A stretch of DNA of 64,000 nucleotides from Geotoga petraea (lineage in GTDB: Bacteria > Thermotogota > Thermotogae > Petrotogales > Petrotogaceae): NCBI RefSeq assembly GCF_900102615.1, contig NZ_FMYV01000005.1:1-64000 (forward strand), read 5' to 3'. The position numbers and the translations under genes are program-made. Under the pieces are notes generated by a model. It saw only the letters and a list, made by a program, of their open reading frames with translations. It had not been told where the DNA came from and did not search any database. Below are positions 1 through 18,216 of this stretch, piece after piece. Numbering within the stretch: the first letter of the stretch is position 1; each line of letters begins with the position of its first letter.

Positions 1-348
1 GTTAAAGATTATTTAAATACAGAAAAAACATATGCTGAAATATCTGAAGAATATCATGTTTCTTCTAGTACATTGACTAAATGGGTCAAAAAGTATGAAG
101 AATCTGGATATGATGAGGATGTTTTTAAAACTAGAAAAAGTAAATCTAAATCTATCATTTCTGACTTTTCTAAGGTTCCACCTATTATATATGAAAAAGC
201 TGGTATTGAAAGGTCTAATAACTATAATGAAGATATTACCTCTATTAAAAGAAAACTCAGCATGTATGAAAAGAGTCTTTTGGAAAAAGAGTTGGAAAAT
301 CAGCTTCTTAGAGAACAAAACGAGATTCTAAAAAAAAATCTGAAATAG
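1..348 (+). CDS. IS3-family transposase OrfA (5' end outside window)
   Basis: This is the helix-turn-helix subunit of an IS3-type transposase. The visible part starts inside the HTH (residues reading YAEISEEYHVSSSTLTKWVK) and ends in a leucine-rich coiled coil, the standard OrfA layout used for end binding and multimerisation. The frame is open from base 1 with no start codon, so the gene begins upstream. It ends in a run of nine A just before its TAG stop, where a -1 slip would continue translation into the OrfB frame. Alone it would be a DNA-binding regulator; fused to OrfB it is the active transposase. Confidence 0.85.
   Translation, partial: VKDYLNTEKTYAEISEEYHVSSSTLTKWVKKYEESGYDEDVFKTRKSKSKSIISDFSKVPPIIYEKAGIERSNNYNEDITSIKRKLSMYEKSLLEKELENQLLREQNEILKKNLK
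330..338 (+). other. A9 slippery site for -1 ribosomal frameshift
   Basis: Nine consecutive A residues lie ten bases before the orfA stop. The orfB frame is exactly -1 relative to orfA and is open through this run, so slippage here yields a continuous OrfAB protein. This is the classical expression mode of IS3-family elements. Frames and A-run are seen directly; slippage itself is inferred. Confidence 0.75.
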
Positions 349-1343
349 TTTTTTCTGAGGATTTTTCTTTTGTTGCCTGGTATTTCTTAATTAATAAGTA
401 CAAAGAGTACGGGCTTTCTATGAGCTTTTTATTGAATTTTTTTGAGATTAAAAAGAGTACTTTTTATTATAATAATAGATTGTTTTTTAGTTTGAATTTT
501 TTTAATAGTTCTAATTCTAATAGACGAGGATTTTCTTTCACTGTTTCAGGCTCCACTTTTTCTGATTCAGATTTATATGAGTTGTTTAATAAACTTTATT
601 CTATTGATGATCCAAATGACCCTTATTACTATGTCAGAACTTTGGGGTCTAAGAAAATCTCTGCTTTTTTGAAAAATGAGCACGATATTATCGTTAACCA
701 CAAGAAGGTTCATTCTATTAGAAAAGAACTTGGTTATGTAAGAGCTTATGTTAATCACTTTAAACATCCAAAGAAAAGACCTAACAACCATGAAGTTACC
801 AGACCAAATCAATTTTTCGAAGCAGATATTAAGTTTATACCCGCTAACAATAAATACATTCCTTTATTAGATGTTATTGACGTTTTTGACAAGAATATTG
901 TTGGTTCTTTTATTGGTGATTCTTGTAAGTCTAAAGATTTTATTTCTACACTTAAAAGTGCTTTTGAGTTTAGGAATCTTGATCCTTCTAATTTAACTAT
1001 TAGAACGGATAACGGTCCTCAATTTGTATCTAAACTAACTAAAGATTTTATGAATGAATTTAATGTTTCTCATGAATTTGGGTACAAGAATAACCCCAAT
1101 TCCCAAGCTTTTATTGAATCACATCATTCTTCTGTTGAAAGAGAATTTGTTTCTCTTAATCCAGATATTGAAGATACTGAGGATGCATATCTCAGATACA
1201 AAGCTTATTTATATTTTTATCATTATCTCAGACCTCATGGTTCTTTGAATTATATGACTCCTGCTTCTTTTCATGATTCTTTTAACCATGATTCTGTTGA
1301 TTTGTTTGTCGATGATTTATTTTCTATTTCTGTTAAAAAGTGA
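333..1343 (+). CDS. IS3-family transposase OrfB (DDE integrase domain)
   Basis: This is the catalytic half of the IS3 transposase, which cuts and joins DNA ends through an RNase H-fold rve domain. The DDE triad is visible: Asp in FEADIKFIP, Asp in RTDNGPQF and Glu in QAFIESHHSS, 35 residues after the second Asp. The C-terminal signature (YHYLRPHGSLNYMTPASF) is typical. The first ATG in this frame is at 420, but the frame is open back to the A9 run at 330, so the functional product is probably the -1 frameshift fusion OrfAB. No inactivating mutation is seen, so the element may still move. Confidence 0.9.
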   Translation, partial: KKSEIVFSEDFSFVAWYFLINKYKEYGLSMSFLLNFFEIKKSTFYYNNRLFFSLNFFNSSNSNRRGFSFTVSGSTFSDSDLYELFNKLYSIDDPNDPYYYVRTLGSKKISAFLKNEHDIIVNHKKVHSIRKELGYVRAYVNHFKHPKKRPNNHEVTRPNQFFEADIKFIPANNKYIPLLDVIDVFDKNIVGSFIGDSCKSKDFISTLKSAFEFRNLDPSNLTIRTDNGPQFVSKLTKDFMNEFNVSHEFGYKNNPNSQAFIESHHSSVEREFVSLNPDIEDTEDAYLRYKAYLYFYHYLRPHGSLNYMTPASFHDSFNHDSVDLFVDDLFSISVKK

Positions 1344-1361
1344 GTTCTTTATACCTCTCGT

Positions 1362-1475
1362 CTAATATGTTGGGGTCAGGCCGATTACATCTGCTGCTGT
1401 TTTCAATCCCTCTCTTTTGATCAATTCTCTATAAAATTTATGTTTTTCTCTTCTTTTCCTTGTTTCTTCTTTCAT
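1362..1475 (-). pseudogene. N-terminal remnant of an IS256-like transposase
   Basis: A minus-strand frame starts at an ATG preceded by a strong AAAGGAGG ribosome site and encodes 37 residues, including a RELIKREGLKTAADVIG stretch. This resembles the start of mutator/IS256 transposases, which begin with a similar basic helix and an LKTxxDV motif. The frame stays native to about the IS3 end at 1378 and stops in IS3 sequence, so the gene was cut by the IS3 insertion. The rest would lie to the left of the window. Family assignment from so short a piece is tentative. Confidence 0.5.
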
Positions 1476-1490
1476 TTTAAAAAACACCTC

Positions 1491-1548
1491 CTTTGGTTTT
1501 ATTTTACTACCAAATTCGGTGTTTTTTTTATTTTACACAATTTTTCTT
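1491..1548. repeat. Terminal repeat region of the interrupted IS, shared with two palindromic copies
   Basis: Directly upstream (minus sense) of the IS256-like start is a sequence containing TTTGGTTTTATTTTACTACC, ATTCGGTGTTTTT and TACACAATTT. The same three blocks recur near 29,850-29,905 and 32,415-32,465, where there is no transposase gene. Here it would be the outer end of the transposon. The similarity is seen directly; calling it an IS end is inference. Confidence 0.6.
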
Positions 1549-1606
1549 ATACTCTCTGCTGTAAATTAGCAAGGGGGATTTTTTTACTTCTCATAATTAT
1601 TGATGG

Positions 1607-1969
1607 TTATCTTACATAAAACTCTATTTCATTTAATGAAATTTCATATTCTTGAAAAATTTCTATAATTGCATCTTTAATTTTGTTTGAATCTAAATTA
1701 GTTTCTATAATATAACCATAAAAACTTTTTGGATATTTGTATCCGTTATCTTTTTTGCTTATGACCCTTTTTCTTCCACTTGATTGAGTTTTTTTAGCAT
1801 AAGTTTCAAATTTTCTTATATCCATATCATGAAATATTTTATAAATGTCTATTAAACATTCTTTCCAATAATTAACTTCGAGTGTTTTCCCAAAAAAAGT
1901 AAATTTCATAGGATGTTTGTTTGTAAAATTATCTTTCAAAGTCAATTTTTCCCTATTATTTTCCAACAT
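1607..1969 (-). CDS. Hypothetical protein, last gene of BREX-adjacent operon
   Basis: I do not recognise this 120-residue protein. It is compact, basic in the middle (SSGRKRVISKK) and has a hydrophobic N-terminal half around KFTFFGKTLEVNYWKECL; no signal peptide or membrane segment is visible. I chose the ATG at 1969 because an AAGGGGTG ribosome site sits eight bases upstream, which rules out the GTG at 1978 that overlaps that site. It is the third gene of a tight minus-strand operon (spacing about 15 bases) with a MerR-like HTH protein and a 420-residue helical protein, all divergent from BREX. Confidence 0.6.
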   Translation of the reverse strand: MLENNREKLTLKDNFTNKHPMKFTFFGKTLEVNYWKECLIDIYKIFHDMDIRKFETYAKKTQSSGRKRVISKKDNGYKYPKSFYGYIIETNLDSNKIKDAIIEIFQEYEISLNEIEFYVR

Positions 1970-1983
1970 TCCTATCACCCCTT

Positions 1984-2418
1984 TTATTTTTTTATTTCCT
2001 TGACTTTCATTATTTCTTTTTTTGGGTATAAAACTTTCCCTTTTTTACCTTTTTTACCTTTGGTAGATTCTAAAGGTTTTATTTCTCCCTCTTTTTCCCA
2101 TCTTATTAATGTAGATAAAGAAATATCTAATTCTTCTATTGCTTCTTGCCTTGTATAATATTTTTTCGAATCATAATCAATTTCTTCATCTAAAATCTCA
2201 TCTTCTTTTTGTTCCAAATATTCTAAAAGTTCTATTACTTTTTTCATTTTTGTTCTTATTGATTTTTTCTCTTCTAAATTCATTAATTCAAAATTATTTA
2301 TTAAACTATCAGAAAGTTTTAAAAGAGCATTTTCTGCTTTGTTTTTTCTTTTTTCCAACCATTTTTTATCGTCTAAAAGATCCTCCAATTCATTTATATT
2401 TTCAAATTTTTCACCCAT
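1984..2418 (-). CDS. Protein with C-terminal MerR-like helix-turn-helix
   Basis: The N-terminal 85 residues are highly charged and helical, with repeated Leu/Glu/Lys suggesting a coiled coil. The C-terminal 60 residues (YYTRQEAIEELDISLSTLIR then a lysine/glycine-rich wing and VLYPKKEI) have the shape of a MerR/excisionase-type winged helix with sequence-specific DNA binding. The start at 2418 is supported by an AGGGAG site eight bases upstream; a GTG three codons earlier overlaps it. It is the middle gene of the three-gene operon. Regulator of the operon, or DNA-binding part of an unknown system, are both possible; function not known. Confidence 0.6.
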   Translation of the reverse strand: MGEKFENINELEDLLDDKKWLEKRKNKAENALLKLSDSLINNFELMNLEEKKSIRTKMKKVIELLEYLEQKEDEILDEEIDYDSKKYYTRQEAIEELDISLSTLIRWEKEGEIKPLESTKGKKGKKGKVLYPKKEIMKVKEIKK

Positions 2419-2430
2419 TGAATTCACTCC

Positions 2431-3693
2431 CTAATATTTCTTATCTATTTTGATATTTTTAATACTTGTTTCTAAATCTTTTATTTTTTCTTCTATATTT
2501 TTAAAATATTTATCTAATGAAATTTTTTCTACATTTATAAAAACATCAAAATCAATTAAATCGTTATATAATTTATAAGTAAATGTGTGTGTTGTATTGA
2601 TTTTCTCTTTAATCAAATCCAATTTATCTAATTTATCATATGTATATGCTTCATCTAACTTATCTGTAGCTAAACTTAGATTATTTAAATTCATATACAA
2701 TAAATCTTCTAATTTTTTATACTCTATGTTATCTTCAACTATTAATTTTAACTTATCTTCTAATTTTATTTTTTCTTCTTTTAGTTGGTTAATTAAATCA
2801 TTATCTTGTTTATCGCTAAGTATATTTTGAATATAATTATTAGCTTTTATGAAATTAATAGTTTTTTCAAGATTGGAAAAATAACTTATTTTAATAATGA
2901 ACTGCAAATATTCTATAAATATTTCAATATAATTTTTACCAAGATGTTTTTCTGAAATTGGTGTAAAAATAAAATCTAAAGAAATATCAATTTTTATTTT
3001 TTCTTCAAATTTACTTTTTTTTATATGCTTCAACAAAGATTGAATATCGATTATCTTTTTTTGATTTATAACATTTATATTCCTAAGATTATTATAATTT
3101 TCTTCTATAATATAATAAATTTGCTTATAAATCTCTTCTTGTGCTTTTTGTAATGTTTCATATTTTTTATTAATTCCCTGTTTCTCCAATAATTCTTCTA
3201 TATCTTCTTTTGAATTAAATATAATAATACGAAAAGGATTATTTAGCATAGAGTAAATAGATAGAGAGTTTTTTAAAAAGTCTAATAAATCTTTTTCATT
3301 GATTTTATTTTCAAAGTAGTAATCTATTACACTATAAAAAATATATTCAACTTTTTTATTGAAGTACTTTTCTTTTATTAAGAAATCATTATGATAATCT
3401 TCAACAAAATCCAAATAAAATATTTCATTTAAATTTGTTTTTTCTTCAAATATGTTTCTTAAATACTTAATAGCATTTTTAAATTCTTTTGACTCATAAT
3501 GTAATAAAGTTTCTTTTCTTTCCAAGATATTTATTAAACTTAATGAATAACCTATTGGAAAAATAAAACCCTCAGGTAGTTTTTCTCTCAGACTATCATA
3601 AGAAGCTTCAGGAAAGAAAAATTCTTCAGATGTTATCCCCATTTCTTTAATTTCTTTTTTTAGTTCTTCTAATATATTTTTTTTATCTTGCAT
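2431..3693 (-). CDS. Unrecognised 420-residue helical protein, first gene of BREX-adjacent operon
   Basis: No family was recognised. The protein is acidic/lysine-rich and largely helical, with a coiled-coil-like stretch around residues 285-345 (NQLKEEKIKLEDKLKLIVED) and another at the C terminus (YFKNIEEKIKDLETSIKN). There are no membrane segments, no P-loop and no obvious nuclease motif. Its start is preceded by GGAGGGAG. It is transcribed away from the BREX operon across a 305-base intergenic region and leads an operon with a MerR-like HTH protein. Its position suggests an accessory defence or regulatory role, but nothing in the sequence proves it. Confidence 0.6.
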   Translation of the reverse strand: MQDKKNILEELKKEIKEMGITSEEFFFPEASYDSLREKLPEGFIFPIGYSLSLINILERKETLLHYESKEFKNAIKYLRNIFEEKTNLNEIFYLDFVEDYHNDFLIKEKYFNKKVEYIFYSVIDYYFENKINEKDLLDFLKNSLSIYSMLNNPFRIIIFNSKEDIEELLEKQGINKKYETLQKAQEEIYKQIYYIIEENYNNLRNINVINQKKIIDIQSLLKHIKKSKFEEKIKIDISLDFIFTPISEKHLGKNYIEIFIEYLQFIIKISYFSNLEKTINFIKANNYIQNILSDKQDNDLINQLKEEKIKLEDKLKLIVEDNIEYKKLEDLLYMNLNNLSLATDKLDEAYTYDKLDKLDLIKEKINTTHTFTYKLYNDLIDFDVFINVEKISLDKYFKNIEEKIKDLETSIKNIKIDKKY

Positions 3694-3852
3694 TATTACT
3701 CCCTCCTATTATGTCAATGGTTAGTTATTGAATAGTTATTAACATATTAAATATATCATCAACATATTAATTTTGCGTTACATTAAAAAGAATATCTATT
3801 TACTTTCAGTAGGGATAGAATACTAAAATATTGTATATAATATTATAATAAA

Positions 3853-3897
3853 TATATCAACTGATTAATTAATTTGTTTATTAATGCTTTTTATAAG
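3853..3897 (+). promoter_or_regulatory. Shared defence promoter element, copy A (BREX)
   Basis: TATCAACTG followed by ATTAATTAATT and, further on, TATAAG lies 100-145 bases upstream of brxA. The same TATCAACTG plus TTTAATTAATTAAC-type block precedes the McrBC operon, dpnI and the DUF262 gene. This copy is the most divergent of the four and its -10 lies about two bases further away. The rest of the 3694-3998 gap is AT-rich with no gene seen. Confidence 0.55.
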
Positions 3898-3998
3898 AGG
3901 ACTTCAGTTATAAATATTTCTAGAATTATGATAGAATAATTAATGGGCAAAAGATAAAAAATTAATTAAAATTTTATATTTTCATGAGGTGAGATCAT

Positions 3999-4592
3999 AT
4001 GAAAAGATACACTGCGGGGTTAACAGGAGCACCTTTTTTATTCTATGAAACTAACAGATGTTTTGAATTATTAAATCAAGGATTATCCATAGATGAAATA
4101 AAACAAAAAGTTTTAGAAGAAAACATTTTTAACTACAAAAAGACTACTTCACTTAGAAGATCTTTTACAGGTATAAAAAAGAGGCTTGAAATGATAGATG
4201 ATGAATTATTAGAAATTTACATCAACTCATTTACAAAAACTAAAAAACAAATAATTTTCTACTTAATTACAAAAAATAATCTCATATTATTAGATTTTTT
4301 AAACGAAATATTAGCAAATAAGATCAAAACAGGAGATTATGAAATTCTTCAAAAAGATTTCAACAAATATTTTAACTACAAATCAGAACAATATCCCGAA
4401 GTAGCAAAATGGACAGAAAAAACAAAACAAAAGTTAATTTCAGTTATGAAAAAGATACTGTTCGAAATCGAAATTGTCACAGATAAAAAATACACAAAAA
4501 TACAAAAAATAAATTTAGATTTTGTTTTTGAGGAATATTTAGAAAAGCAAAATGAAAAAGAATTCTTATATTTTTTCAAAGTAGGTGATTAG
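3999..4592 (+). CDS. brxA: BREX protein BrxA (DUF1819)
   Basis: This is the first gene of the BREX operon. The 197-residue product starts KRYTAGLTGAPFLFYETNR, the typical opening of DUF1819/BrxA, a small helical DNA-binding protein needed in type 1 BREX. Length matches the family (about 200). The start is fixed by a GAGGTGAG ribosome site before the ATG. It stops one base before brxB, which implies translational coupling. Its promoter region carries the element shared with the other defence loci. No damage is visible. Confidence 0.92.
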   Translation: MKRYTAGLTGAPFLFYETNRCFELLNQGLSIDEIKQKVLEENIFNYKKTTSLRRSFTGIKKRLEMIDDELLEIYINSFTKTKKQIIFYLITKNNLILLDFLNEILANKIKTGDYEILQKDFNKYFNYKSEQYPEVAKWTEKTKQKLISVMKKILFEIEIVTDKKYTKIQKINLDFVFEEYLEKQNEKEFLYFFKVGD

Positions 4593-5159
4593 ATGCAAAT
4601 AAATGAAAGACTTACTAAAGTAAGAGAAAAGATATCAAAACCTGAATTTACAAAAATGAAAGGGCTTGCCAACGAAATAGCTTTTTATATTTTTGATTAT
4701 GATCCAAAAGATGAACCCATAGTTGAAAAATATATTCCCACATTGATAAAACATTTTGACGAAGAATATACAGATAGAAAAATTGCTGAAATTAATCTAT
4801 ATAAAATATTAATTGAAAATATGAAAAAAGATGGAGTACTTGAAGAGGTTTTCAACTTGGAAAAAGACTTAAATGACCAAGAACTATATGAAACACTAAT
4901 AAATTACGCAAGAAAAGAAATTTTCATTGACAAAATAAGAGAAGCACTAAACAGTTATCACATAATATTTATAACAGGGATAAGTCACATTCACCCAATA
5001 ATAAAGTCTCACGAATTGCTATCAAAATTACACGAAGTAGTAGGCGATAAAAAACCTGTAGTGCTTTTCTACCCGGGAGAATTCACTGGAGATGTTCTAA
5101 AATCATTTCACAAAGGAAACAATCATAGATATTACAGAGCAAGACCTTTGATACAGTAA
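4593..5159 (+). CDS. brxB: BREX protein BrxB (DUF1788)
   Basis: The 188-residue product matches the DUF1788/BrxB layout: a helical N-terminal region, the ITGISHIHPIIKSHELLSKL segment and the ending VVLFYPGEFTGDVLKSF..HYYRARPL, which is characteristic of BrxB. BrxB is a core component of type 1 BREX with no assigned enzymatic activity. Its ribosome site (AGGTGA) lies within the last codons of brxA, and brxC follows after 29 bases. The gene appears intact. Confidence 0.92.
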   Translation: MQINERLTKVREKISKPEFTKMKGLANEIAFYIFDYDPKDEPIVEKYIPTLIKHFDEEYTDRKIAEINLYKILIENMKKDGVLEEVFNLEKDLNDQELYETLINYARKEIFIDKIREALNSYHIIFITGISHIHPIIKSHELLSKLHEVVGDKKPVVLFYPGEFTGDVLKSFHKGNNHRYYRARPLIQ

Positions 5160-5188
5160 CATTAATAATATGATTAGGGGGTTATATA

Positions 5189-8100
5189 ATGAAAATAAAA
5201 GACCTATTTAAAAGAGATATAGAAAGAAAAATACGAGGAGTAATAACAGTAAACAAAGAAGAAGAATTAGTTTATCAAGAATTAGAAGAATATGTAGTTA
5301 CAAAAGATATTAGAAAAAACTTAATAAAATTTATAAATGAATTCAACAAAAGTTTTGACGAACCAATTCATGATATAGGAGTATGGATATCTGGATTTTA
5401 TGGTTCAGGGAAATCACATTTTCTAAAAATCCTATCTTACCTTTTAGAAAACGAGGAAATTAAAGGTAAAAAATCTGTTGAATTTTTTAGGGACAAGATA
5501 GACGAACAAAGCTTTGCGGAACTTGAAAAAGCAGCAAATCAATCTAAAGATGTGATTATATTCAACATAGATTCTGAAAGTAACTCTGATGATAGAGAAG
5601 AAAGTCTTTTAAACGTCTTCAAAAAAATGTTTTACCAAAAACTTGGAATAGACGCGAGCAATAAAACGATATTTGAAATAGAAAAAAGGCTATTTGAAAT
5701 GGGTAAGTTCGATGATTTCAAAAAGTTGTATAAAGAAAAAACTAATAATAGTTGGACAGAAAAAGGGAGACAAACATTTTTCATTTTCAAAAACAAAGTA
5801 AAAGATATTTTTGCTGAAGTACTGGGTTTGTCTGAAGAAGAAAAAAATGACCTGTCATTTGACAACCTCCAATCTGACAACTCTATAAGAAAATTTGCAC
5901 AAGACATACAAGAATACATAAAATCAAAAGGAAACAACCACCACGTTGTTTTTCTTGTAGATGAAGTAGGGCAATACATATCAGAAAGCCAAAATCTAAT
6001 ACTAAATTTACAAACTCTCTCTGAAGAATTAGCAAATCAATGTCATGGTAAAGCATGGATAGTAGTAACTTCTCAAGAAGAAATCCAAGATTTAACAGGA
6101 AGAAGACAGGCAGATTTTTCAAGAATTCAAGCTAGATACAAAACAAGGCTGAATTTTTCTTCAATATCCGTGGATGAAGTTATAAAAAAGAGGCTTTTAG
6201 ACAAAACTGATGTAGCAAAAGATGAATTAAAGTTAAGATACCACGATGAACAACAAACTCTGAGAAACGCAATATCTTTTAACAACCAAGCTTCTATGTA
6301 TAATGGTTTTAAATCGGAAGATGACTTTATTGAAACATACCCTTTCATTCCTTATCAAATAAAACTTCTTCAAAATGTTTTTGAAGATATAAGAAAAAAC
6401 AGTGTAGCAGGAAGATACCTTTCAGAAGGAGAAAGATCCCTTCTTTCTGCTTACCAGGAATCAGCAATCATATATGAAGAAGAAGAAACTGATACTCTAA
6501 TACCCTTCCATTCTTTTTATGAAACAATTAAAAACTTCTTAAAAAGTCAGATAATAAGAGTATTTGAAAATGCTGAAGACCTTGTTGATTCTGCAGCTAT
6601 AAAAGAAGAAGATATAAAAGTACTGAAAACGTTGTTTTTAATAAGATATGTAGAAAACTTCGAAAAAAACATAGAAAACATAACAACTTTAATGTTAGAA
6701 AAAATAGAACAAGATAAATTAGAACTTAAAAAACAAATAACAGAATCTTTAAAAAGATTAAAAACACAAGCTTTAATTTCTCAAAACGGAGAACAATATT
6801 TCTTCTTAACAAACGAAGAACAAGAAATAAATCAAAGAATAGAAAGAATCGAAATAGATGATATAGAAATTAGAAAAGAAATAAAGGAACTTATATTCGA
6901 CGAAATAAACAGTAGTAACTACAAAATGAGATATAACAAAAATGACAGAAACCATTCTTTTTCATTTGATGTAGCAATAGACGAACAAGAATTTGGAAAT
7001 AGAAATGAAATATCTGTTGAAGTGATAACCCCTTTAGGAGAAAAGGCTGATTTTACAAAGAACAGACTTATGTCTTATTCATCACTTCAAACAAAAAAAC
7101 TTATAATAAAACTGAACAACCTTGAAAATACACTAAATGAAATAACAGAATATTTGAAAATAAATAAATATTCAAACAGTATAAATAGAAACAATATAAC
7201 AGAAACACAAAGAAGAATAGTACAAGACAAATTATCTGAAATAACAGAAAGAAAAAACAGAGCCATTTCAGAAATAGAAGATATATTGGTTAATTCAGAA
7301 TTTTATAGTTTTGGACGTGAAATTAAAAGTTCTGGAAAAGAAAAAGAAAAGCTGAACAACAGTTTCGAAGAATTTATTCAAAATGTTTATTCCAAACTCG
7401 TTTTAGTAGAATCAATAGACAAAAAAGAGCTAATAAAAATAATAAAAAATAATAAATACAGAACATTCAGCGAAGAATACAGAAATAAAAAAGCCACAGA
7501 AGAAATGAAAAACTATTTAGAAAACACCTCCTACAATAGCCAAAAAACATTAAAAGATCTATATACAAAGTTTGAAAATCCTCCATATGGCTGGACAGAA
7601 ATAGAAACACTTAGCCTTATTTTAATATTATATAAGAAAGAATTAATTCAACTAAAAGAAAGTTCTGAAATAATAAGTGTTGAAAATAACCAGGATATAG
7701 ACCGATTGTTGGGAAAAGACAGCGAAAGAATAATTGTACAAAAAAGAGAAAGATTAAATGACAAAATTTTGGGAATAGTTACAAAAAAAATGTCTGAACT
7801 CTTCTCAGAAATGTACACAAGTAATTCAACAAATGAAATATACAAAAAGTTAAACCAAAAATTAGAAGAATATGCAGGGGTCATCGATAATTATGTCTAT
7901 GAATCGGAATCAAAAGATCTTCCAGGGAAAAAAGAATTAAAAATTGGCCAAGACATGCTCTCTGACTTGCAGAGAATAAACCAAGAAAACGAACTACTAA
8001 AAGCTTTTGCAGAAAGAGCAGAAGACATTTTACAATGGAAAGAAGATTATAGAGAAACTCTCGATTTCTACAGAGACGGAAAATATCAAAAAGAAATATT

Positions 8101-8746
8101 GCTTAAAGCCAAAGAATTTGCAAAATCTTTTCCTTCTATAATCGTTGAAGACGATTTCATAGTGAACGAAAATCATACATCTGAATTATACGAAAAGTTA
8201 AAAGAAATAATAAATTCCGAAAGACCTTACAGAGAAATAGTCAATATCCCTGATTTATTAGACAAACTAAAAAAAGCAAAAGAAGAATACATCAATGAAC
8301 AAAAAGAGACCATATTCAAAAAAGCAGAAAAAACATTTGATGAATTAGAAAACTATGCAAATCAAGATTACGTTGACAGTGAAACCAAAGAAAACATAAA
8401 AAACACAAAACAAAATATCTTAAACAAAATAAACGAATCAAATGATTTAACAAGATTGTCCACTATTAACTTTTCAATTGATACATATAAATACAGGTTC
8501 AACAAAAATATTGAAGAAGATATTGTAAAAAACAAACCAAAAATAATAGAAAGTAAACCTCCTGTTGTTGAAACCCCTAATGAACCAATAGCAAAAGAAA
8601 AAATTGTAAAAAAAATTAGAAAAGCAAACCTAATAAAAACAAAATCAATAAAAAATGAAGATGATTTAGAAAAATTGTTATATGAGATTCGAAAAGAAAT
8701 TGAAGATGACTTGAAAAATAACTCAGAAATTGAAATAATCGATTGA
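5189..8746 (+). CDS. brxC: BREX ATPase BrxC/PglY
   Basis: This 1185-residue protein is the large P-loop ATPase of BREX, which assembles with BrxB, PglX and PglZ. A Walker A motif (GFYGSGKSH) lies at about residues 68-76, with a Walker B-like VVFLVDEVGQYI at about 252-263. The remainder is long, charged and helical, with a proline-rich linker (SKPPVVETPNEP) before a lysine-rich C-terminal tail. Length is normal for BrxC. It is preceded by AGGGGG and followed 13 bases later by pglX. No frameshift was seen over 3.5 kb. Confidence 0.92.
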   Translation: MKIKDLFKRDIERKIRGVITVNKEEELVYQELEEYVVTKDIRKNLIKFINEFNKSFDEPIHDIGVWISGFYGSGKSHFLKILSYLLENEEIKGKKSVEFFRDKIDEQSFAELEKAANQSKDVIIFNIDSESNSDDREESLLNVFKKMFYQKLGIDASNKTIFEIEKRLFEMGKFDDFKKLYKEKTNNSWTEKGRQTFFIFKNKVKDIFAEVLGLSEEEKNDLSFDNLQSDNSIRKFAQDIQEYIKSKGNNHHVVFLVDEVGQYISESQNLILNLQTLSEELANQCHGKAWIVVTSQEEIQDLTGRRQADFSRIQARYKTRLNFSSISVDEVIKKRLLDKTDVAKDELKLRYHDEQQTLRNAISFNNQASMYNGFKSEDDFIETYPFIPYQIKLLQNVFEDIRKNSVAGRYLSEGERSLLSAYQESAIIYEEEETDTLIPFHSFYETIKNFLKSQIIRVFENAEDLVDSAAIKEEDIKVLKTLFLIRYVENFEKNIENITTLMLEKIEQDKLELKKQITESLKRLKTQALISQNGEQYFFLTNEEQEINQRIERIEIDDIEIRKEIKELIFDEINSSNYKMRYNKNDRNHSFSFDVAIDEQEFGNRNEISVEVITPLGEKADFTKNRLMSYSSLQTKKLIIKLNNLENTLNEITEYLKINKYSNSINRNNITETQRRIVQDKLSEITERKNRAISEIEDILVNSEFYSFGREIKSSGKEKEKLNNSFEEFIQNVYSKLVLVESIDKKELIKIIKNNKYRTFSEEYRNKKATEEMKNYLENTSYNSQKTLKDLYTKFENPPYGWTEIETLSLILILYKKELIQLKESSEIISVENNQDIDRLLGKDSERIIVQKRERLNDKILGIVTKKMSELFSEMYTSNSTNEIYKKLNQKLEEYAGVIDNYVYESESKDLPGKKELKIGQDMLSDLQRINQENELLKAFAERAEDILQWKEDYRETLDFYRDGKYQKEILLKAKEFAKSFPSIIVEDDFIVNENHTSELYEKLKEIINSERPYREIVNIPDLLDKLKKAKEEYINEQKETIFKKAEKTFDELENYANQDYVDSETKENIKNTKQNILNKINESNDLTRLSTINFSIDTYKYRFNKNIEEDIVKNKPKIIESKPPVVETPNEPIAKEKIVKKIRKANLIKTKSIKNEDDLEKLLYEIRKEIEDDLKNNSEIEIID

Positions 8747-8759
8747 TAGGGGGATATAA

Positions 8760-11700
8760 ATGAACACAAATAAAATAAAGAGATTCGCAACAACATCAAG
8801 AGAAGAACTAATAAAAGCAGTTGAACTTGAAGCAACTAAACTCGGAATAACAAAAGAAAACTACAAAAACTTGAATGAAGATACAGAAATAATAGACGGA
8901 AAAGTAATAAACCAAAACACAAAACTCCAAAGAAAAGAACTTCTTCAAAAAATGAAAAAAGATGGTTTTGAAAACACAATTGAAGAAATAGCATACACAT
9001 GGTTCAACAGAATAATAGCCATAAAATATATGGAACATAATAAACTTTTCCCAAAGTTCATCCCAAGTTATGTTTCAATATTAGAATCAAAAACAACAGA
9101 ACCACAAATTACTCAAAATCCATCTGAAATAAAATATATATTAGATTTAGATAATCAAAAAACTGCTGAACTATACGAACAAAACAAACCAAAACTTTTC
9201 AAATACATAATGGTCCATCTCTGTAATAGATTAAACAAAAACATGCCTTTCATGTTCGAGGAAATAGCAGATTACACAGAACTTCTTTTCCCATCTCATT
9301 ATCTTTTCAAAGAATTCCACCAAAAAATGGAAAAAGAAATAGAAAAAGAAGATTGGGAACAAATTGAGCTATTGGGTTGGTTATATCAATTTTATATAGC
9401 TGATAAAAAAGATATTCTTATGAATAGTAAAAAAGCTTACAAAAAAAATGAAGTTCCAGCAGTAACCCAACTATTCACACCAAAATGGATAGTAAAATAT
9501 ATGGTAGAAAACTCACTGGGTAAAATATGGGTAGAATCATACCCAGAAACTCATTTAAAAGAAAAAATGGAATACTATATAGAAGAAGAAAAGCAAGAAA
9601 AAGAAGTAGAAAAACAACTCGAAAAAATAAGGTACAAAAACGTTAATCCAGAAAACATAACTTTTCTGGATCCTGCTTGTGGTTCTGGACATATTCTTGT
9701 ATATGCTTTTGATATATTCTATTCCATGTACGAAGAAAAAGGATACATTAAATCAGAAATTCCAGAAAAAATACTAAAAAATAATCTGTTTGGATTAGAC
9801 ATAGACAAAAGGGCAGCACAACTTGCAAACTTTGCAGTTATTATGAAAGCTAGACAAAAAAACAGAAATATACTGGAAGAAAATATAACACCACACATAC
9901 AAGAAATAAAAGAAACAAATACTATTCAAGAATCTATAGAATTACTAACTAAAGATATGAACAATGAAGAAAAACAAAAAACAGAATACATAATAAACAA
10001 ATTCATAGATGCAAAAGAATATGGTTCTATTCTTGAAGTAGAAGACAATGATTATGATTTTATCATTGATAAACTTAATAACCTAGAATCACAAAAAGTG
10101 TTTGAACAAAATGATATTAAAAAACTAAAAGAACTATTACCAGACATAATCAAGCAAGCTAACATTCTAAAAAACAAATATGATGTTGTTTCTACTAACC
10201 CTCCTTATTTGGGGTCTAAGGGTATGAATAAAAAATTAAAAGATTATTTGAAAAAATATTTTAAAGATTCAAAAACTGATATGTTTGCTGTATTCATAGA
10301 AAGAAACTTAGATTTTTTAAAGCCAAATGGATTTAATGCTATGATAACTATGCAATCTTGGATGTTTTTGTCCAGCTTTGAAAAATTAAGAGGATATCTA
10401 TTGAACAATTTTACTATAATAAATATGAATCATTTAGGGCCAAGAGCTTTTAAAGAGATTAGTGGTGAGGTTGTACAAGCAGTTTCTTTTTCTCAAAGAA
10501 ATATTAAAACATTAGATTATATTGCAAATTATTCTAGATTGGTTGATTATAAAAATGCTGAACTAAAAGAAATTGAATTTAAAAAAGAAGAAAATTGGTA
10601 CACAGCAAAACAAAATGATTTCAAAAAAATCCCAGGCTCACCAATCGCCTATTGGGTTAGCGATAAAATTTATGATATTTTTGAAAATTCAAAAAAACTC
10701 TCTGAATTTGGTGATGCTAGACAAGGTCTTGCTACTTCAGATAATAAAAGGTTTTTAAGATTATGGCACGAAGTGAGCAAAAACAATGTTGGTTTTGGAT
10801 ATGAAAATAGAGAACAAGCTAAAGAATCAGGCCTAAAATGGTTCCCATATAATAAAGGAGGAGATTTTAGAAAATGGTATGGTAACAATGATTATATTGT
10901 TAATTGGGAAAATGATGGTTATGAAATAAGAAACTTTTTCGATGATAGAGGTAAACTAAGATCAAGACCACAAAATACAAATTATTATTTTAGAGAAGGT
11001 TTAACTTGGTCAAAAATTTCCAGTTCAAAAATTTCATTTAGACAGAAATTCAATGGAAATATTTTTGATGTTGCTGGAACTACTTTTTTCCCAGATGAAA
11101 ACATACTCTATTTAAATGGAGTATTAAACTCAAAATTATCTCTAAATTTTTTATATTTTATGTCTCCAACACTGAATTATGAAGTTGGTCAAATAAAAAA
11201 TATCCCAATAATCTTCCCAAAAAACGAAGAAACAAAAGAAAAAATAGACGAAATAGTAAAAGAAAACATAGAAATATCAAAAAAAGATTGGGATAGTTTT
11301 GAAACAAGCTGGGATTTTAAAACACATCCAATTTTAGAACACAATACAGACGGAAATATAGAAAATGCTTTTGAGAACTGGAAAGATTTTGCAGAAAAAC
11401 AGTTCAACAAACTCTGGCAAAATGAAGAAAAACTAAACAAAATATTCTTGAAAATATACGATTTAGAAGATAAAATGACACCAGACGTAGAAGAAAAAGA
11501 CGTTACTATAAACAAAGCAGATAAAGAAAGAGATATAAAATCTTTTATATCTTATGCTGTTGGTTGTATTGCAGGAAGATATTCTCCAGATAAAAAAGGA
11601 CTTATTTATGCTGGAGGAGAATTCAACATGGAAGAATACCCAAAATACAAACCAGATGAAGACGGAATAATACCTGTTCTAAAACACAACCTTTTTAGCG

Positions 11701-12248
11701 ACGACATAGTAGAAAAATTCATAGAATTTGTTAAATACACTTTTGGTGAAGAACACTTAAAAGAAAACCTGGATTTCATTGCAGATACACTAAAGAAAAA
11801 TAACAAAGACTCAAAACAAACAATAAGAGAATATTTTATAAAAGATTTTTACAAGGATCATGTAAAAACATATAAAAAGAGACCAATATACTGGATGTTT
11901 GATTCTGGAAATAACAATTCTTTTAAAGCTCTGATATATCTACACAGATATAACAAAGACACTATATCTAAACTAAGAACTGACTATATCCACGAATACC
12001 AACAAAAACTCGAAACAGAAATATCTTTTATACAATCAAGACTTGAAAACAGTGATAACATGACTGCAAGAGATAAAAAAGAATTAGAAAACAAATTAAA
12101 AGATTTGAAGAAAGATTTGAAAGAAACAAGAGATTACGAAGAAAAAGTTCATCATTTTGCTGATCAGAGAATAGAGATTGACTTGGATGATGGGGTTAAA
12201 AACAATTATTCTATTTTTCAAGATATTTTAGTTAATGTCAAATTATAA
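8760..12248 (+). CDS. pglX: BREX-1 adenine-specific DNA methyltransferase PglX
   Basis: PglX methylates adenine in a non-palindromic site on host DNA and so marks self for BREX. In this 1162-residue protein the SAM-binding motif I (LDPACGSGHILVYAF) is at about residue 303 and the catalytic NPPY motif (VVSTNPPYLGS) at about 480. The methylase fold is entered after AVTQLFTPKWIVKYM. The C-terminal half is the recognition region (for example YFREGLTWSKISSSKISFRQ). Both catalytic motifs are intact, so the enzyme should be active. The target site cannot be read from sequence. It is embedded between brxC and pglZ with short spacers. Confidence 0.94.
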   Translation: MNTNKIKRFATTSREELIKAVELEATKLGITKENYKNLNEDTEIIDGKVINQNTKLQRKELLQKMKKDGFENTIEEIAYTWFNRIIAIKYMEHNKLFPKFIPSYVSILESKTTEPQITQNPSEIKYILDLDNQKTAELYEQNKPKLFKYIMVHLCNRLNKNMPFMFEEIADYTELLFPSHYLFKEFHQKMEKEIEKEDWEQIELLGWLYQFYIADKKDILMNSKKAYKKNEVPAVTQLFTPKWIVKYMVENSLGKIWVESYPETHLKEKMEYYIEEEKQEKEVEKQLEKIRYKNVNPENITFLDPACGSGHILVYAFDIFYSMYEEKGYIKSEIPEKILKNNLFGLDIDKRAAQLANFAVIMKARQKNRNILEENITPHIQEIKETNTIQESIELLTKDMNNEEKQKTEYIINKFIDAKEYGSILEVEDNDYDFIIDKLNNLESQKVFEQNDIKKLKELLPDIIKQANILKNKYDVVSTNPPYLGSKGMNKKLKDYLKKYFKDSKTDMFAVFIERNLDFLKPNGFNAMITMQSWMFLSSFEKLRGYLLNNFTIINMNHLGPRAFKEISGEVVQAVSFSQRNIKTLDYIANYSRLVDYKNAELKEIEFKKEENWYTAKQNDFKKIPGSPIAYWVSDKIYDIFENSKKLSEFGDARQGLATSDNKRFLRLWHEVSKNNVGFGYENREQAKESGLKWFPYNKGGDFRKWYGNNDYIVNWENDGYEIRNFFDDRGKLRSRPQNTNYYFREGLTWSKISSSKISFRQKFNGNIFDVAGTTFFPDENILYLNGVLNSKLSLNFLYFMSPTLNYEVGQIKNIPIIFPKNEETKEKIDEIVKENIEISKKDWDSFETSWDFKTHPILEHNTDGNIENAFENWKDFAEKQFNKLWQNEEKLNKIFLKIYDLEDKMTPDVEEKDVTINKADKERDIKSFISYAVGCIAGRYSPDKKGLIYAGGEFNMEEYPKYKPDEDGIIPVLKHNLFSDDIVEKFIEFVKYTFGEEHLKENLDFIADTLKKNNKDSKQTIREYFIKDFYKDHVKTYKKRPIYWMFDSGNNNSFKALIYLHRYNKDTISKLRTDYIHEYQQKLETEISFIQSRLENSDNMTARDKKELENKLKDLKKDLKETRDYEEKVHHFADQRIEIDLDDGVKNNYSIFQDILVNVKL

Positions 12249-12259
12249 GGGGTATTATT

Positions 12260-14785
12260 ATGGCAGATAATCGAGAAAGCATTATTAAAAATATAAAAGA
12301 TTATTTCAAACCTGGTCCAGTAAGAACTATTGTCCTCTGGATAGATGAAGAAAAAGACTTTGAAGACATATTCGATGAAATTGAAATAGATAATGTTGAA
12401 AAAATCTACCTGAACAAAAACAACAGGTTGGGATCAAAATTCCAAATATTTTATCAAAATAAAGATAAGGATTATATTGTCTATACAGATTTTGATGTTG
12501 AAGATGATGATTTTGTTGCTGATATCAAAATTCACTCGAAAATTTTTAGAGCAGACAAAATTTCTTTAATATTAAAAAATTTGAAAATAGATTTTGGTTC
12601 TGGGGATATTTATTCTTTTATTAGAAAAAATAGACAGTTTTTTGGAAACAAAAGAATAGAAAAATTAAAAACATATAACTTGAATTATGAAATTATTGAT
12701 AATCTTTATCTTGGTATGATGTATGCTCTGTTAGATATGAATTATCCAGATAAAGAAGAGATGATAATACGATTACTTTCTTCTGGCTTGGAAAAAAATG
12801 ATTACTATGAAAAAATAGCTAATTATATAGAAGAAGAAATATTTTGGAATATGTTAAGAAAAATGTACGGATATTCTGGAGAACATACATTAAAAAAATT
12901 CGCTGCCTATCTTTTTGTAAATGGTATTGCAAATGATTTTGACAATAAAATACTTTCTAGATTCAGAAATTATATAAACGAAAATTATATTCCACAAATA
13001 TTTGTATTTTTGGATCACTGGAAACATAGAAACCCTTCTTCTTTTGAAGAAGTCTCCCAAAAGATAGATTCTTTTTTAGAAATTGAATCAGTTTTACAAG
13101 ATTCTGACTTAGATTCAATAAAAAACATTTTTCTTTTTGAATGTGCAGAAAAACAAATTATCAAAAAAATATATAACTTTTTAAAATCTGAAGTTCACAA
13201 GTTTGATGATTTCAAAGAAATTATAAATAAAAGGCAATCTTCTTTTTGGAACGATAAATATGGAAAATATTATAAGATGTTACACTATTATATAGAAATT
13301 CTATCTTTTAAAGAAGTTTATAGTTCTTCTTCTTTTCTAAGTGATTTTGAAGAAGGAATAAAGAGATATACTGAAGAGCTATACAAAATGGATTACTATT
13401 ATAGAAAATTTTTTTACGAATTCGGAAAATATTCTCAACCAGAATTTATAAAAAATATTGCAAACGAAATTGAAAATATATACGTTAATTGGTTTATACC
13501 AAATTTAGATGAAGCATGGGTAAGGACTTTAAAATTAAAAAGAGATTGGGAATTTTATGGTATTAAAGCACAGAGAAATTTCTATAGTCAAAATTCTGGA
13601 GAGTTTGACAAAGTCAAATCTGTGGTTATAATATCTGATGCTTTGAGGTTCGAAGTTGCAAAAGAGTTAGAAGAAAAATTAAACGAAAATTTTCGTAGTG
13701 AAACAAAATTAAACACAAGAGTTTCAAGTATTCCTTCTATAACAAGTATTGGTATGGCGAGTTTACTCCCTAACAATGAAAATATAAATATTAAAGATGA
13801 TGGATCTGTCTTAATAGGAGATAAACCAACTTCTAATATTGATAATAGAAAAGAGATTTTAAAAAGTGATAGAGAAAAATCAACAGCTATAAAGTTCAAT
13901 AATTTTATGGATATGAACCTTGAAGAACAAAAAGAATTTAAAAAACAAAATGATTTAATTTATATATACCATAACAGTATTGACGCAACAGGGGATAACG
14001 CTGCTTCTGAAGAAAGAGTTTTTAACGCTTGTAAAGAAGCTATAGATGAAATTTACAATCTTTCAAGGGCTTTGAAAAATATAGGTTTTACAAATATAAT
14101 AATAACTTCTGACCATGGGTTTTTATACCAAAAATCGAAAATGGAATCATATGAAAAATTACCAAGAGAAAAAATAGATTATATAAGCTATAAGAGACGT
14201 TATTTTATAACAAATAAAGAAATTAAAAACCACAATTACTTGAGTTTTAAACTTGATTATCTTGCTAATCAAGATTTATTTGCTTATTTCCCAAAGGGGA
14301 ATATAAGATTCAACACGCAAGGTGCTGGTTCTAACTTTGTTCATGGTGGACTAAGTTTACAAGAGATAGTTATCCCAGAATTAATCTTTAAACCAGTTAA
14401 AAGCACAAGAAAGGATTCAGATAAATATGAATCAAAAAATGTTGAATTAGAATTAGTAAATGATTTAAAGAAAATTACAAATACTTTTTTTAGTTTGAAT
14501 TTTTATCAGAAAGAGCCTGTTGGAGGGAAAAATAATCCTTCTGATTTTGAGATATATCTTGTTGATTCAAAAGAAAAGATCGTGTCTAATTTGGTAAAAA
14601 TTGTTGCCAATAGCACAGATAAAGATAATAAAAATAGAACTTATTCTGAAAGATTCAATTTAAAGAACGAAAACTTCGATAAATCTAAAGATTATTATCT
14701 TGTTATAAAAAATACCACAACAGATACAGAAAAAAGGTATAATTTTACTATAGATATTTTAATTTCTGATGATTTTGGCTTTTAA
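12260..14785 (+). CDS. pglZ: BREX-1 phosphatase-like protein PglZ (type A)
   Basis: PglZ is a core BREX component with an alkaline-phosphatase-superfamily fold that acts with PglX. In this 841-residue protein the metal-site signatures are visible: SDALRFEVAKEL near residue 459 and ITSDHGFLYQ near 616, with GAGSNFVHGGLSLQEIVIPE near 690-710. The C-terminal 130 residues look like a beta-rich accessory domain. The ATG is preceded by an AAGGGGT site. Length and order (pglX-pglZ-brxL) match type 1 BREX. No defect was seen. Confidence 0.93.
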   Translation: MADNRESIIKNIKDYFKPGPVRTIVLWIDEEKDFEDIFDEIEIDNVEKIYLNKNNRLGSKFQIFYQNKDKDYIVYTDFDVEDDDFVADIKIHSKIFRADKISLILKNLKIDFGSGDIYSFIRKNRQFFGNKRIEKLKTYNLNYEIIDNLYLGMMYALLDMNYPDKEEMIIRLLSSGLEKNDYYEKIANYIEEEIFWNMLRKMYGYSGEHTLKKFAAYLFVNGIANDFDNKILSRFRNYINENYIPQIFVFLDHWKHRNPSSFEEVSQKIDSFLEIESVLQDSDLDSIKNIFLFECAEKQIIKKIYNFLKSEVHKFDDFKEIINKRQSSFWNDKYGKYYKMLHYYIEILSFKEVYSSSSFLSDFEEGIKRYTEELYKMDYYYRKFFYEFGKYSQPEFIKNIANEIENIYVNWFIPNLDEAWVRTLKLKRDWEFYGIKAQRNFYSQNSGEFDKVKSVVIISDALRFEVAKELEEKLNENFRSETKLNTRVSSIPSITSIGMASLLPNNENINIKDDGSVLIGDKPTSNIDNRKEILKSDREKSTAIKFNNFMDMNLEEQKEFKKQNDLIYIYHNSIDATGDNAASEERVFNACKEAIDEIYNLSRALKNIGFTNIIITSDHGFLYQKSKMESYEKLPREKIDYISYKRRYFITNKEIKNHNYLSFKLDYLANQDLFAYFPKGNIRFNTQGAGSNFVHGGLSLQEIVIPELIFKPVKSTRKDSDKYESKNVELELVNDLKKITNTFFSLNFYQKEPVGGKNNPSDFEIYLVDSKEKIVSNLVKIVANSTDKDNKNRTYSERFNLKNENFDKSKDYYLVIKNTTTDTEKRYNFTIDILISDDFGF

Positions 14786-14799
14786 TCAGGGGGATAGTT

Positions 14800-16833
14800 A
14801 TGGAAAATTTTAATTTAGATGAAAAATTAAAACAAGATTTTGCTGGAAGAATAGTGAGAAAAGATTTGACTAATTCTATAAAAGAAGGGCTAAATGTACC
14901 TATTTATGTTCTTGAATATCTGCTTGGTTCATATTGTTCAACTGATGATGAACAAGAAATAGAAGAAGGGGTAAAAAGAGTTAAATCTATTTTGTATGAT
15001 AATTTTGTACGACCAGATGAAGCAGAAAGGATAAAGTCAAAGATAAAAGAGAATGGAATTTACAAAATTATAGACAAGATAACTGCTAAATTAAATTTTA
15101 AAAAAGATAGATACGAAGCAGAATTCTCAAACCTTGGCATTAAAGGTGTAACCATTGGTGCTGAATATGTCACTAAGTTTGAAAAACTACTTGGTGGTGG
15201 AATTTGGTGTATTGTAGACATGGAATATTTTTACGAAGAAGCAGGAGATGAAAGCCCTTTTATTATATCTTCTTTAAAGCCTATTCAACTTCCTAATGTT
15301 GATATTAACGAGATAAAAGAAAACAGAAAAAATTTTACCAAAGATGAATGGATCGATGTATTAATAAGATCAACAGGAATGGAACCAAGTAATATAGAAG
15401 AAAATGTTAGATGGCATTTGCTTGAAAGACTGGTTCCATTGGTAGAGAATAATTATAACCTCTGTGAACTTGGACCAAGAAGTACTGGTAAATCGCATGT
15501 TTATAAGGAAATTTCTCCTAACAGCATTTTGGTTTCAGGAGGACAAACAACAGTTGCAAATTTATTTTTTAATATGTCTACTAAAAAAATTGGTTTGGTA
15601 GGACTTTGGGATACAGTAGCCTTTGATGAAGTAGCGGGAATAAAATTTAAAGACAAAGACGGTATTCAAATTATGAAAGATTATATGAACTCTGGTTCTT
15701 TTGTAAGGGGTAGTGATGAAAAACAAGGTACTGCTTCTATGGTCTTTGTGGGTAATGTTAATCAAAGTATTGATTCACTGGTAAAAACATCTCATTTATT
15801 TGCTCCTTTTCCACCAGAAATGTCTACTGATTCAGCTTTTTTTGATAGAATGCATTATTATCTTCCTGGATGGGAAATGCCTAAATTAAGCCCAAAACTC
15901 ATCACAGATAATTATGGTTTTATTGTTGACTATTTGGCTGAATTTTTCAGAGAAATGAGAAAAATATCTTATTCAGATGCTTTTGAAAAATATTATAAAT
16001 TAGGTAGTGATTTAAACCAAAGGGACGTCACTGCTGTTAGAAAAACTATTTCTGGATTAACAAAATTGATTTATCCAGATGGTAATTTTGAAAAAGAAGA
16101 TATTGAAGAAATTTTAAAATATGCTCTTGTAGGAAGAAGAAGGGTAAAAGAACAGTTGAAAAAAATAGGAGGAATGGAGTTTTATGACGTTCATTTTTCT
16201 TATTTGGATAGAGAAACTAATCAAGAAGAATTTGTCTCTGTACCAGAAATGGGTGGAGGAAAACTTATTCCAAATGGAAAGCTTAAACCAGGAGATGTTT
16301 ATGTAGTTGGCTCTAATAATAGTGGCATGAAGGGTGTTTATAAGCTCGAGAACAGTGTTTCAACAGGAAATGGTAAGTTTACCAAGACCAGTGTTGGAAA
16401 TAACAGTGGAGCCAAAGAAAGCATAGATATAGCCTTTAGATATTTTGGATCTAACCACAATAGCTTTAGTAGTTCTATTAGCGTAAAAAATAATAATTTT
16501 TTAATGCAAATTTCTGATTTACAAGGATACGGTTTATCTGGAGAACTGGCAATTGGAGAATTAGTTGGTCTTGTCTCAGCTGCTTTGGGTAAATCTGTCT
16601 TAGAAAGTTTAGCAATTATGGGAAATATGACTGTAAGTGGAACAATTCCAAAAATAGAGAATTTTGCTGATGCTGTTTCTGTTGCGGTAGATGCAGGAGC
16701 AAGAAAAATACTTATACCTGCCTCTTCTGTTGCAGATTATCAGACAATACCACAAGATTTAATAGTTAAATTTACTCCTATATTCTATTCAGATCCAATA
16801 GATGCTGCTTTCAAAGCAATGGGAGTTGAATAA
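14800..16833 (+). CDS. brxL: BREX AAA+/Lon-like protein BrxL
   Basis: BrxL is the AAA+ component with a Lon-like C-terminal domain; in characterised systems it forms DNA-encircling rings needed for phage exclusion. Walker A (LGPRSTGKSHVYKE) is at about residues 224-237 and a Walker B-like LWDTVAFDEVAG at about 269-280. The C-terminal 170 residues resemble the Lon protease fold (VSVAVDAGARKILIPASSVAD), but I do not see the usual Lon serine motif, in keeping with BrxL acting without proteolysis. The 677-residue length is normal. It is the last gene of the operon and is followed by a strong hairpin terminator. Confidence 0.93.
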   Translation: MENFNLDEKLKQDFAGRIVRKDLTNSIKEGLNVPIYVLEYLLGSYCSTDDEQEIEEGVKRVKSILYDNFVRPDEAERIKSKIKENGIYKIIDKITAKLNFKKDRYEAEFSNLGIKGVTIGAEYVTKFEKLLGGGIWCIVDMEYFYEEAGDESPFIISSLKPIQLPNVDINEIKENRKNFTKDEWIDVLIRSTGMEPSNIEENVRWHLLERLVPLVENNYNLCELGPRSTGKSHVYKEISPNSILVSGGQTTVANLFFNMSTKKIGLVGLWDTVAFDEVAGIKFKDKDGIQIMKDYMNSGSFVRGSDEKQGTASMVFVGNVNQSIDSLVKTSHLFAPFPPEMSTDSAFFDRMHYYLPGWEMPKLSPKLITDNYGFIVDYLAEFFREMRKISYSDAFEKYYKLGSDLNQRDVTAVRKTISGLTKLIYPDGNFEKEDIEEILKYALVGRRRVKEQLKKIGGMEFYDVHFSYLDRETNQEEFVSVPEMGGGKLIPNGKLKPGDVYVVGSNNSGMKGVYKLENSVSTGNGKFTKTSVGNNSGAKESIDIAFRYFGSNHNSFSSSISVKNNNFLMQISDLQGYGLSGELAIGELVGLVSAALGKSVLESLAIMGNMTVSGTIPKIENFADAVSVAVDAGARKILIPASSVADYQTIPQDLIVKFTPIFYSDPIDAAFKAMGVE

Positions 16834-16841
16834 AAAATATT

Positions 16842-16872
16842 ACGGATGATCATTTAAGATCATCCGTTTTTG
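16842..16872. terminator. Bidirectional terminator after brxL
   Basis: A perfect stem, ACGGATGATC against GATCATCCGT, with a loop of about six bases and T-rich flanks on both sides, lies between convergent brxL and the lipoprotein gene. Confidence 0.85.
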
Positions 16873-16876
16873 TTTG

Positions 16877-17374
16877 TCAGTTTGTTCCACTTGATACTAA
16901 ATCTTCTGGGTAACTATGCATTTCGCTATTCTCTTTATATATATAATATAAATACCAAGCTCCTTCTATTTTTGCAATGGTCATAGTTTCTAAATCATCT
17001 TCCATATTTTCATCTTCATATTTTTTTAATGCTTCAACATCTGCTAATTTTTCTACTTTTCCTGGAGCTGAAGTTGGTGCTTCTTTTACAGTCACATTGT
17101 TTACTTCAAATGAAACTTTTTGATCTTCCATCATACTTCTTGCAAAAGTCATTAATGCAGCTATTTGATCTGTTTCTGTAGCAGTTAATCCTTCCATATA
17201 AAAATAATCTTCAACTATTTTTGAAGCTGAAACTTCATCACCACTTAAGTCATTATAAAAACCTAAAACTGCATTTTTTGCTAAATCTTCGTCTGAAGCA
17301 AAAATTCCTCCAGTACATCCAACAAACAAAAAACTAACCGCCAAAACTAAACTTAAAAATAACACTTTTTTCAC
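16877..17374 (-). CDS. Small secreted lipoprotein of unknown function
   Basis: The 165-residue product begins with a lipoprotein signal peptide: MKK, a hydrophobic stretch of about 15 residues and the lipobox FVGC at residues 17-20. The mature part resembles small DUF4878-type domains (residues 28-60, KNAVLGFYNDLSGDEVSASK), with a C-terminal half holding IEGAWYLYYI; this assignment is weak. The start is a GTG preceded by GGAGAG. The gene stands alone between two terminators, convergent with brxL. A partial, poorer version of the shared TATCAA element lies about 60 bases upstream. Confidence 0.7.
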   Translation of the reverse strand: MKKVLFLSLVLAVSFLFVGCTGGIFASDEDLAKNAVLGFYNDLSGDEVSASKIVEDYFYMEGLTATETDQIAALMTFARSMMEDQKVSFEVNNVTVKEAPTSAPGKVEKLADVEALKKYEDENMEDDLETMTIAKIEGAWYLYYIYKENSEMHSYPEDLVSSGTN

Positions 17375-17460
17375 AAAAATCTCTCCAAAAAATTAATTAA
17401 TCAATTTTGTTGAAAATTGAACTTATTTGTATATCACTTGATAGGTTAATTAAAAAAAAG

Positions 17461-18126: not shown

Positions 18127-18133
18127 TATATTT

Positions 18134-18214: not shown

Positions 18215-18216
18215 AT

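Follow-up and report, generated by a model that had tools for sequence, protein, structure and literature searches.

A three-gene operon beside a type I BREX locus of Geotoga petraea encodes a predicted SeqA C-terminal-fold protein

The window analysed here, a 64,000-nt stretch of the Geotoga petraea genome, starts where contig 5 starts and carries a complete type I BREX set in the order brxA-brxB-brxC-pglX-pglZ-brxL. Divergent from brxA, across 305 bp, lie three minus-strand genes, hereafter P1, P2 and P3, separated from each other by only 3 and 5 bases (Table 1). Each is preceded by a Shine-Dalgarno-like purine-rich stretch, which favours ATG start codons at 3693, 2418 and 1969, respectively, and the longest open frame of the region has 424 codons, whereas 300 mononucleotide shuffles of the same stretch gave none longer than 168. 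The tight three-gene operon facing away from brxA that the first-pass annotation had described was thus confirmed. That annotation had also called the smallest product basic, which is correct for P3 (pI 9.0), whereas P1 and P2 are acidic (5.3 and 5.9).

Table 1. Positions of the P1-P3 operon, the BREX genes and neighbouring features in the window
Feature	Position	Strand	Annotation
IS3-type transposase	420-1343		rve, HTH_21; adjoins the P3 end of the operon
Frame start	~1370-1490	-	ribosome-binding-site-like stretch; seemingly cut short beside the IS3 element (by eye); perhaps a gene interrupted by that element
P3	1607-1978	-	123 aa from GTG; ATG at 1969 likelier, 120 aa; SeqA C-terminal-like
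P2	1984-2427	-	147 aa from GTG; ATG at 2418 likelier from the upstream sequence, 144 aa
P1	2431-3693	-	420 aa; orphan, helical, acidic
P1/brxA divergent control region	3694-3998		15-nt repeats, three in number and weak (3738, 3758, 3856)
brxA	3999-4592	+	PF08849, E 6e-47
brxB	4593-5159	+	PF08747, E 2.6e-29
brxC	5189-8746	+	NF033441, E 1.6e-292
pglX	8760-12248	+	adenine methyltransferase; PADLOC PglX, 1475.7 bits
pglZ	12260-14785	+	PF08665, E 1.2e-49
brxL	14800-16833	+	PF13337, E 1.7e-143
McrBC pair	18700-21332	-	McrB with EVE domain; just downstream of BREX
354-aa island protein	21469-22533	-	no match in Pfam or PADLOC
Neighbour of the 493-aa protein	24610-25263		no match
493-aa specificity-like protein	25852-27333	-	no Pfam match; PADLOC match to type I specificity subunits over its C-terminal part (E 2.5e-15)
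DUF6577 protein, then AbiEii-type nucleotidyltransferase	27631-29322	+	possible AbiE-like pair
Restriction enzyme-like frame	29952-30512	-	corresponds to the C-terminal portion of a PADLOC model for type II restriction enzymes; with the next frame (together 29952-31127), perhaps a split restriction enzyme
Frame upstream of the preceding one	30513-31127	-	matches DUF6996/DUF6997

BREX and the P1-P3 operon lie in a defence island, which continues beyond brxL with the McrBC, specificity-like, AbiEii-type and DUF6996/DUF6997 genes of Table 1. The genome encodes at least two further candidate adenine methyltransferases besides PglX, so that a methyl mark need not come from PglX, although this is the nearest source. 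In the control region shared by P1 and brxA, the 15-nt repeats were considered as operators; they are weak in this respect, being equalled in 3 of 200 dinucleotide shuffles. A promoter scan returned 10 sites, below the shuffle level of 24.2, and no Rfam match was obtained within positions 1-20000. As to whether the operon could be a piece of a mobile element, a possibility that had been raised at the outset, none of the matches found places it in the adjoining IS3 element.

P1 is found only in its own genome among the 103 same-phylum genomes searched. Library scans yielded no family match (best PHROGs E-value 0.045), no relatives were found in the genomes, plasmids, phages and viral contigs searched, and the PDB sequence search gave nothing usable. 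A further 348 genomes produced matches only at E >= 0.002. The best of the weak matches (L148; E 0.0022, or 0.00091 in another search) was read as a MinC-like frame beside minD and rejected. The AF2 model of P1 was unusable (pLDDT 35.5).

P2 carries at its C-terminus an HTH_17 domain (Pfam E 4e-7, 30.6 bits with a cut-off of 27), preceded by a charged, helix-like and coiled-coil-like N-terminal part. The earlier description of P2 as a MerR-like HTH protein therefore stands for the HTH DNA-binding domain but not for the MerR assignment, since the MerR models remain below their cut-offs (MerR 21.7 bits versus 28.2; MerR_1 15.6 versus 21.6) whereas HTH_17 passes, and since the HTH is C-terminal. 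MerR and phage-excisionase proteins have just a generic HTH in common with P2, and both identities were rejected; a match to MADS mad1 (E 3.1e-6) is likewise confined to the HTH. No WYL domain was matched in P1, P2 or P3 at E <= 1.

SeqA functions in gammaproteobacterial replication control, and its C-terminal domain binds hemimethylated DNA. P3 alone gave no convincing family match in library scans, Pfam SeqA included, and as a single sequence it matched no SeqA chain in the PDB and nothing among plasmids or viral contigs. In the search of the 103 same-phylum genomes, P3 matched the C-termini of nucleases of ~355 aa, three of which carry an HSDR_N domain. Two of these three HSDR_N nucleases are also hit by Pfam SeqA_C (E 1.3e-6 and 1.1e-5), and one of the three by the NCBIfam SeqA model (E 1.3e-7). 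A profile built from P3 and the three nuclease C-termini retrieved six PDB sequences at E <= 10, and the best five were all SeqA (E 2.8e-4 to 0.036). Furthermore, an AF2 model of P3 (pLDDT 83.6, pTM 0.80), computed from an alignment of P3 and four viral-contig homologues that was devoid of any SeqA sequence, had SeqA as its four top Foldseek matches, though with weak E-values (0.25 to 1.3). When compared by VIA-align, the model superimposed on the four SeqA entries with Z-scores of 9.2-9.3 over 89-95 residues (rmsd 2.3-2.6 Å), the runner-up having a Z-score of 2.1. By profile and predicted fold together, P3 is the SeqA C-terminal domain occurring as a protein of its own. This evidence overrules an AbiEi identity suggested by PADLOC (E 0.0025 over 37 residues). 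It also revises the first-pass view that all three proteins fall outside known defence families, as the profile searches place P3 in a SeqA C-terminal-fold family tied to restriction systems. P3 is the sole SeqA-like protein found in its genome.

The available text of PMC6225831, citing Fujikawa 2004, names Arg116, Thr117, Arg118, Asn150 and Asn152 as the SeqA residues that touch the GATC site. According to the alignments, their counterparts in P3 are R66, K67, R68, N91 and D93. That is, three of the five contact residues are identical, K67 is as in Vibrio SeqA, and Asn152 is replaced by Asp; the GRKR loop of P3 is also present in the V. cholerae SeqA chain (3sk7). The methyl-DNA binding surface thus appears largely kept, with one of two asparagines altered. 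We infer from alignment and model that P3 binds adenine-methylated DNA, most likely in the hemimethylated state, by means of the GRKR loop and Asn91.

In order to place P3 within its family, we assembled 23 other loci with a SeqA-like domain: three from the same-phylum search, six from a set of 29 genomes (5 with matches), ten from a set of 398 genomes (10 with matches) and four further ones. The three same-phylum loci were kept out of 13 matches outside the G. petraea genome, the others being dropped for lack of full profile support (L006-L010, L012-L015 and L011, the latter a partial match of 34 residues); a tblastn match in Aeromonas and repeat matches of the same genomes are also outside the count. 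By raw count, eighteen of the 23 loci are tied to restriction genes by fusion or adjacency. In ten of them a restriction nuclease carries the domain as a fusion. Three of these nucleases have HSDR_N, five have both GmrSD domains and one has GmrSD_N only, while the tenth was counted by its 87% identity to a scanned one. L141, L142, L145, L146 and L147 are GmrSD-type proteins with a SeqA-like C-terminal domain. The GRKR loop, present in P3, is lost in the four GmrSD copies that were aligned (L141, L142, L145 and L146), which may reflect a changed target.

In the remaining eight restriction-linked loci the SeqA-like protein is free-standing and has restriction genes for neighbours: type III-like Mod and Res (L144), HsdR (L137 and L138), HsdM, HsdS and HsdR (L154), HsdR and HsdM (L155), HsdS and HsdR (L156), an SNF2-Mrr protein (L140), or a helicase with HsdR on the opposite strand (L136). 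The five loci without clear restriction context are L124, L129, L134, L135, in which the frame is broken, and L153, which has a contig end upstream. An hhalign comparison of P3 with the free-standing subfamily linked to restriction-modification (R-M) covered 112 of 120 residues (probability 98.3, E 1.7e-14, 34% identity), and it is to this group that P3 is closest. The libraries searched contain no name for the free-standing SeqA-like family. In two of the R-M-type loci a protein of 1166-1181 aa is encoded downstream of the SeqA-like gene (L153, 1335-4832; L156, 7078-10620); the L156 copy is without Pfam match and the L153 copy without NCBIfam match. A PC4-like small gene lies upstream in L153, and a similar frame is found in L156.

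The fused nucleases raise the question of whether the operon could be a stand-alone, modification-dependent defence system, in which P3 would recognise methylated invading DNA and P1 would be the effector. Such a role would agree with the occurrence of the domain at the C-terminus of GmrSD-type and HSDR_N nucleases, where it is a possible sensor of modified DNA. We nevertheless regard it as improbable, since library scans recognised no nuclease or other effector domain in P1 or P2, and no nuclease domain in P3, and since the aligned GmrSD-fused copies are without the GRKR loop that P3 has.

A genome collection yielded 142 related brxC loci, of which the best 80 were examined to see whether the trio travels with BREX. 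None of these 80 loci holds P1, P2 or a SeqA-like domain, and in 50 of them the sequence reaches 3.6 kb or more upstream of brxC, so that a trio placed as in G. petraea would have been seen. BrxA was found in 7 of the 103 same-phylum genomes. Since the trio is absent from the other 80 BREX loci searched, its link to BREX rests on one adjacency, and it is the position of the operon that suggests a connection with BREX itself. The position beside BREX and the DNA-binding domain, on which the first-pass annotation had based its idea of a candidate regulator set, are both borne out by the gene layout and by HTH_17, and the idea of a regulatory or accessory function holds up, now with a SeqA-fold P3 next to an HTH_17 P2.

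These observations also bear on a serious alternative, which we hold to be somewhat less probable than a function in BREX, namely that P3, perhaps with its partners, is a passenger that arrived independently, out of a different restriction locus or island, without any action on BREX, reading another mark or acting alone. Its free-standing relatives occur beside type I or type III R-M genes and never beside BREX in the 80 loci searched. Moreover, the GC content of P1 is lower than that of brxC (18.9% versus 27.6%), which suggests separate acquisition. The operon directly adjoins an IS3-type transposase, and its island also encodes McrBC and a type I specificity-like protein. On the other hand, the tight divergent arrangement with brxA, the intact frames with their ribosome-binding sites, and the presence of the methyltransferase PglX next door argue against a mere passenger.

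This analysis shows how the genes are arranged, that P3 has the SeqA fold by profile and model and keeps most of the contact residues, and that its family is tied to restriction. On this footing we tentatively favour the possibility that the operon serves the defence island as an accessory or regulatory module for reading methyl marks, which would tune BREX with P3 as the reader. According to the parts of the cited papers that were available, BREX modifies just one strand of asymmetric sites (PMC12707154), and type I PglX enzymes methylate adenine in 6-bp non-palindromic motifs (PMC11341690). The likeliest natural mark for P3 would be the methylation laid down by the adjacent PglX on one strand of an asymmetric site; after replication, one daughter would then be unmarked at each site modified in this way. 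P3 could hold on to marked DNA or, once bound, signal to the brx promoter or the BREX complex that self DNA has been marked already or newly replicated. P2 would be either the sequence-specific DNA-binding partner of P3, passing the signal to the brx promoter, or a regulator of the operon, in both cases acting at the shared control region, and P1 may be a helical scaffold or an effector. As a result BREX would be restrained or tuned, by analogy with SeqA, which holds back re-initiation at origins that carry the mark. The same logic could apply to type I sites in the hemimethylated state and to type III sites, modified on one strand, in the systems where the free-standing relatives occur. A more specific version, in which P3 serves specifically to read the N6-methyladenine that PglX leaves on one strand and forms with P2 and P1 a feedback module coupling self-DNA methylation to BREX expression or activity, is speculative and, taken as a whole, unlikely.

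In the literature covered, as far as its text was available, there is no explanation of how the newly replicated, unmarked daughter site is spared by BREX or by one-strand R-M systems. A SeqA-fold protein next to PglX, and elsewhere beside type I and type III R-M genes, is a concrete candidate for such a function. If P3 does read the PglX mark, SeqA-fold readers would make up a class of accessory proteins that is widespread among restriction systems and as yet without a name. More generally, SeqA-like proteins extend from gammaproteobacterial replication control to the restriction systems of many other prokaryotes, and in some GmrSD and HSDR_N nucleases the C-terminus is suggested as a candidate sensor of modified DNA. 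We found no description of SeqA-like proteins in R-M or BREX in the literature searched, which mostly excluded subscription papers, so that an earlier description is possible. In the accessible parts of two R-M papers SeqA appears as a microscopy marker (PMC6326788, PMC12707154), and the word is absent from the main text, as available, of a 2026 BREX survey (PMC12839542).

The SeqA C-terminal domain (PF03925; 1LRR, 1IU3, 3FMT, 3SK7) shares with P3 the predicted fold, the GRxR loop and the equivalent of Asn150, whereas Asn152 corresponds to Asp93. This likeness, together with a MethyltransfD12 (Dam-type family) gene in the G. petraea genome (G000:C4:60199), would agree with P3 being a SeqA-like replication or chromosome factor that reads GATC methylation by a chromosomal Dam-type enzyme and has no role in defence. 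However, SeqA works in replication control and has an N-terminal oligomerisation domain, whereas P3 sits in a defence island and, with 120 aa and only ~20 residues before the domain, is without one. Moreover, P3 is closest to R-M-linked proteins, and it was found in none of the 20 other same-family genomes listed, all of which makes a replication factor very improbable.

As a putative reader tuning BREX, P3 can be further compared with several restriction-associated proteins. The free-standing proteins of type I and type III R-M loci (L136, L137, L138, L144 and L154-L156) share with P3 an N-terminal motif before the domain, but most of these relatives have an extra N-terminal region of ~60-130 residues whereas P3 is minimal; hhalign supported neither the P2 N-terminus nor P1 as the missing region. 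Furthermore, the relatives adjoin HsdR or Mod/Res, whereas P3 has no HsdR or Res gene adjacent and instead adjoins P1, an HTH protein and BREX, which is itself R-M-like and includes an adenine methyltransferase. The GmrSD-type and HSDR_N nucleases have a C-terminal domain of the same family, but combine nuclease and candidate reader in one chain. P2, for its part, resembles BrxR, described in the available text of PMC9122589 and PMC9122601 as a WYL-domain BREX regulator, in being a DNA-binding protein encoded beside brxA, but has HTH_17 instead of WYL. Finally, the accessible part of PMC12839542 describes RAMA or ASCH/PUA 'reader modules' in the BREX-related type 2 BR systems. These resemble P3 in concept, as readers of modified bases that accompany a BREX-like system, but, unlike P3, belong to other domain families and are fused to DUF3780.
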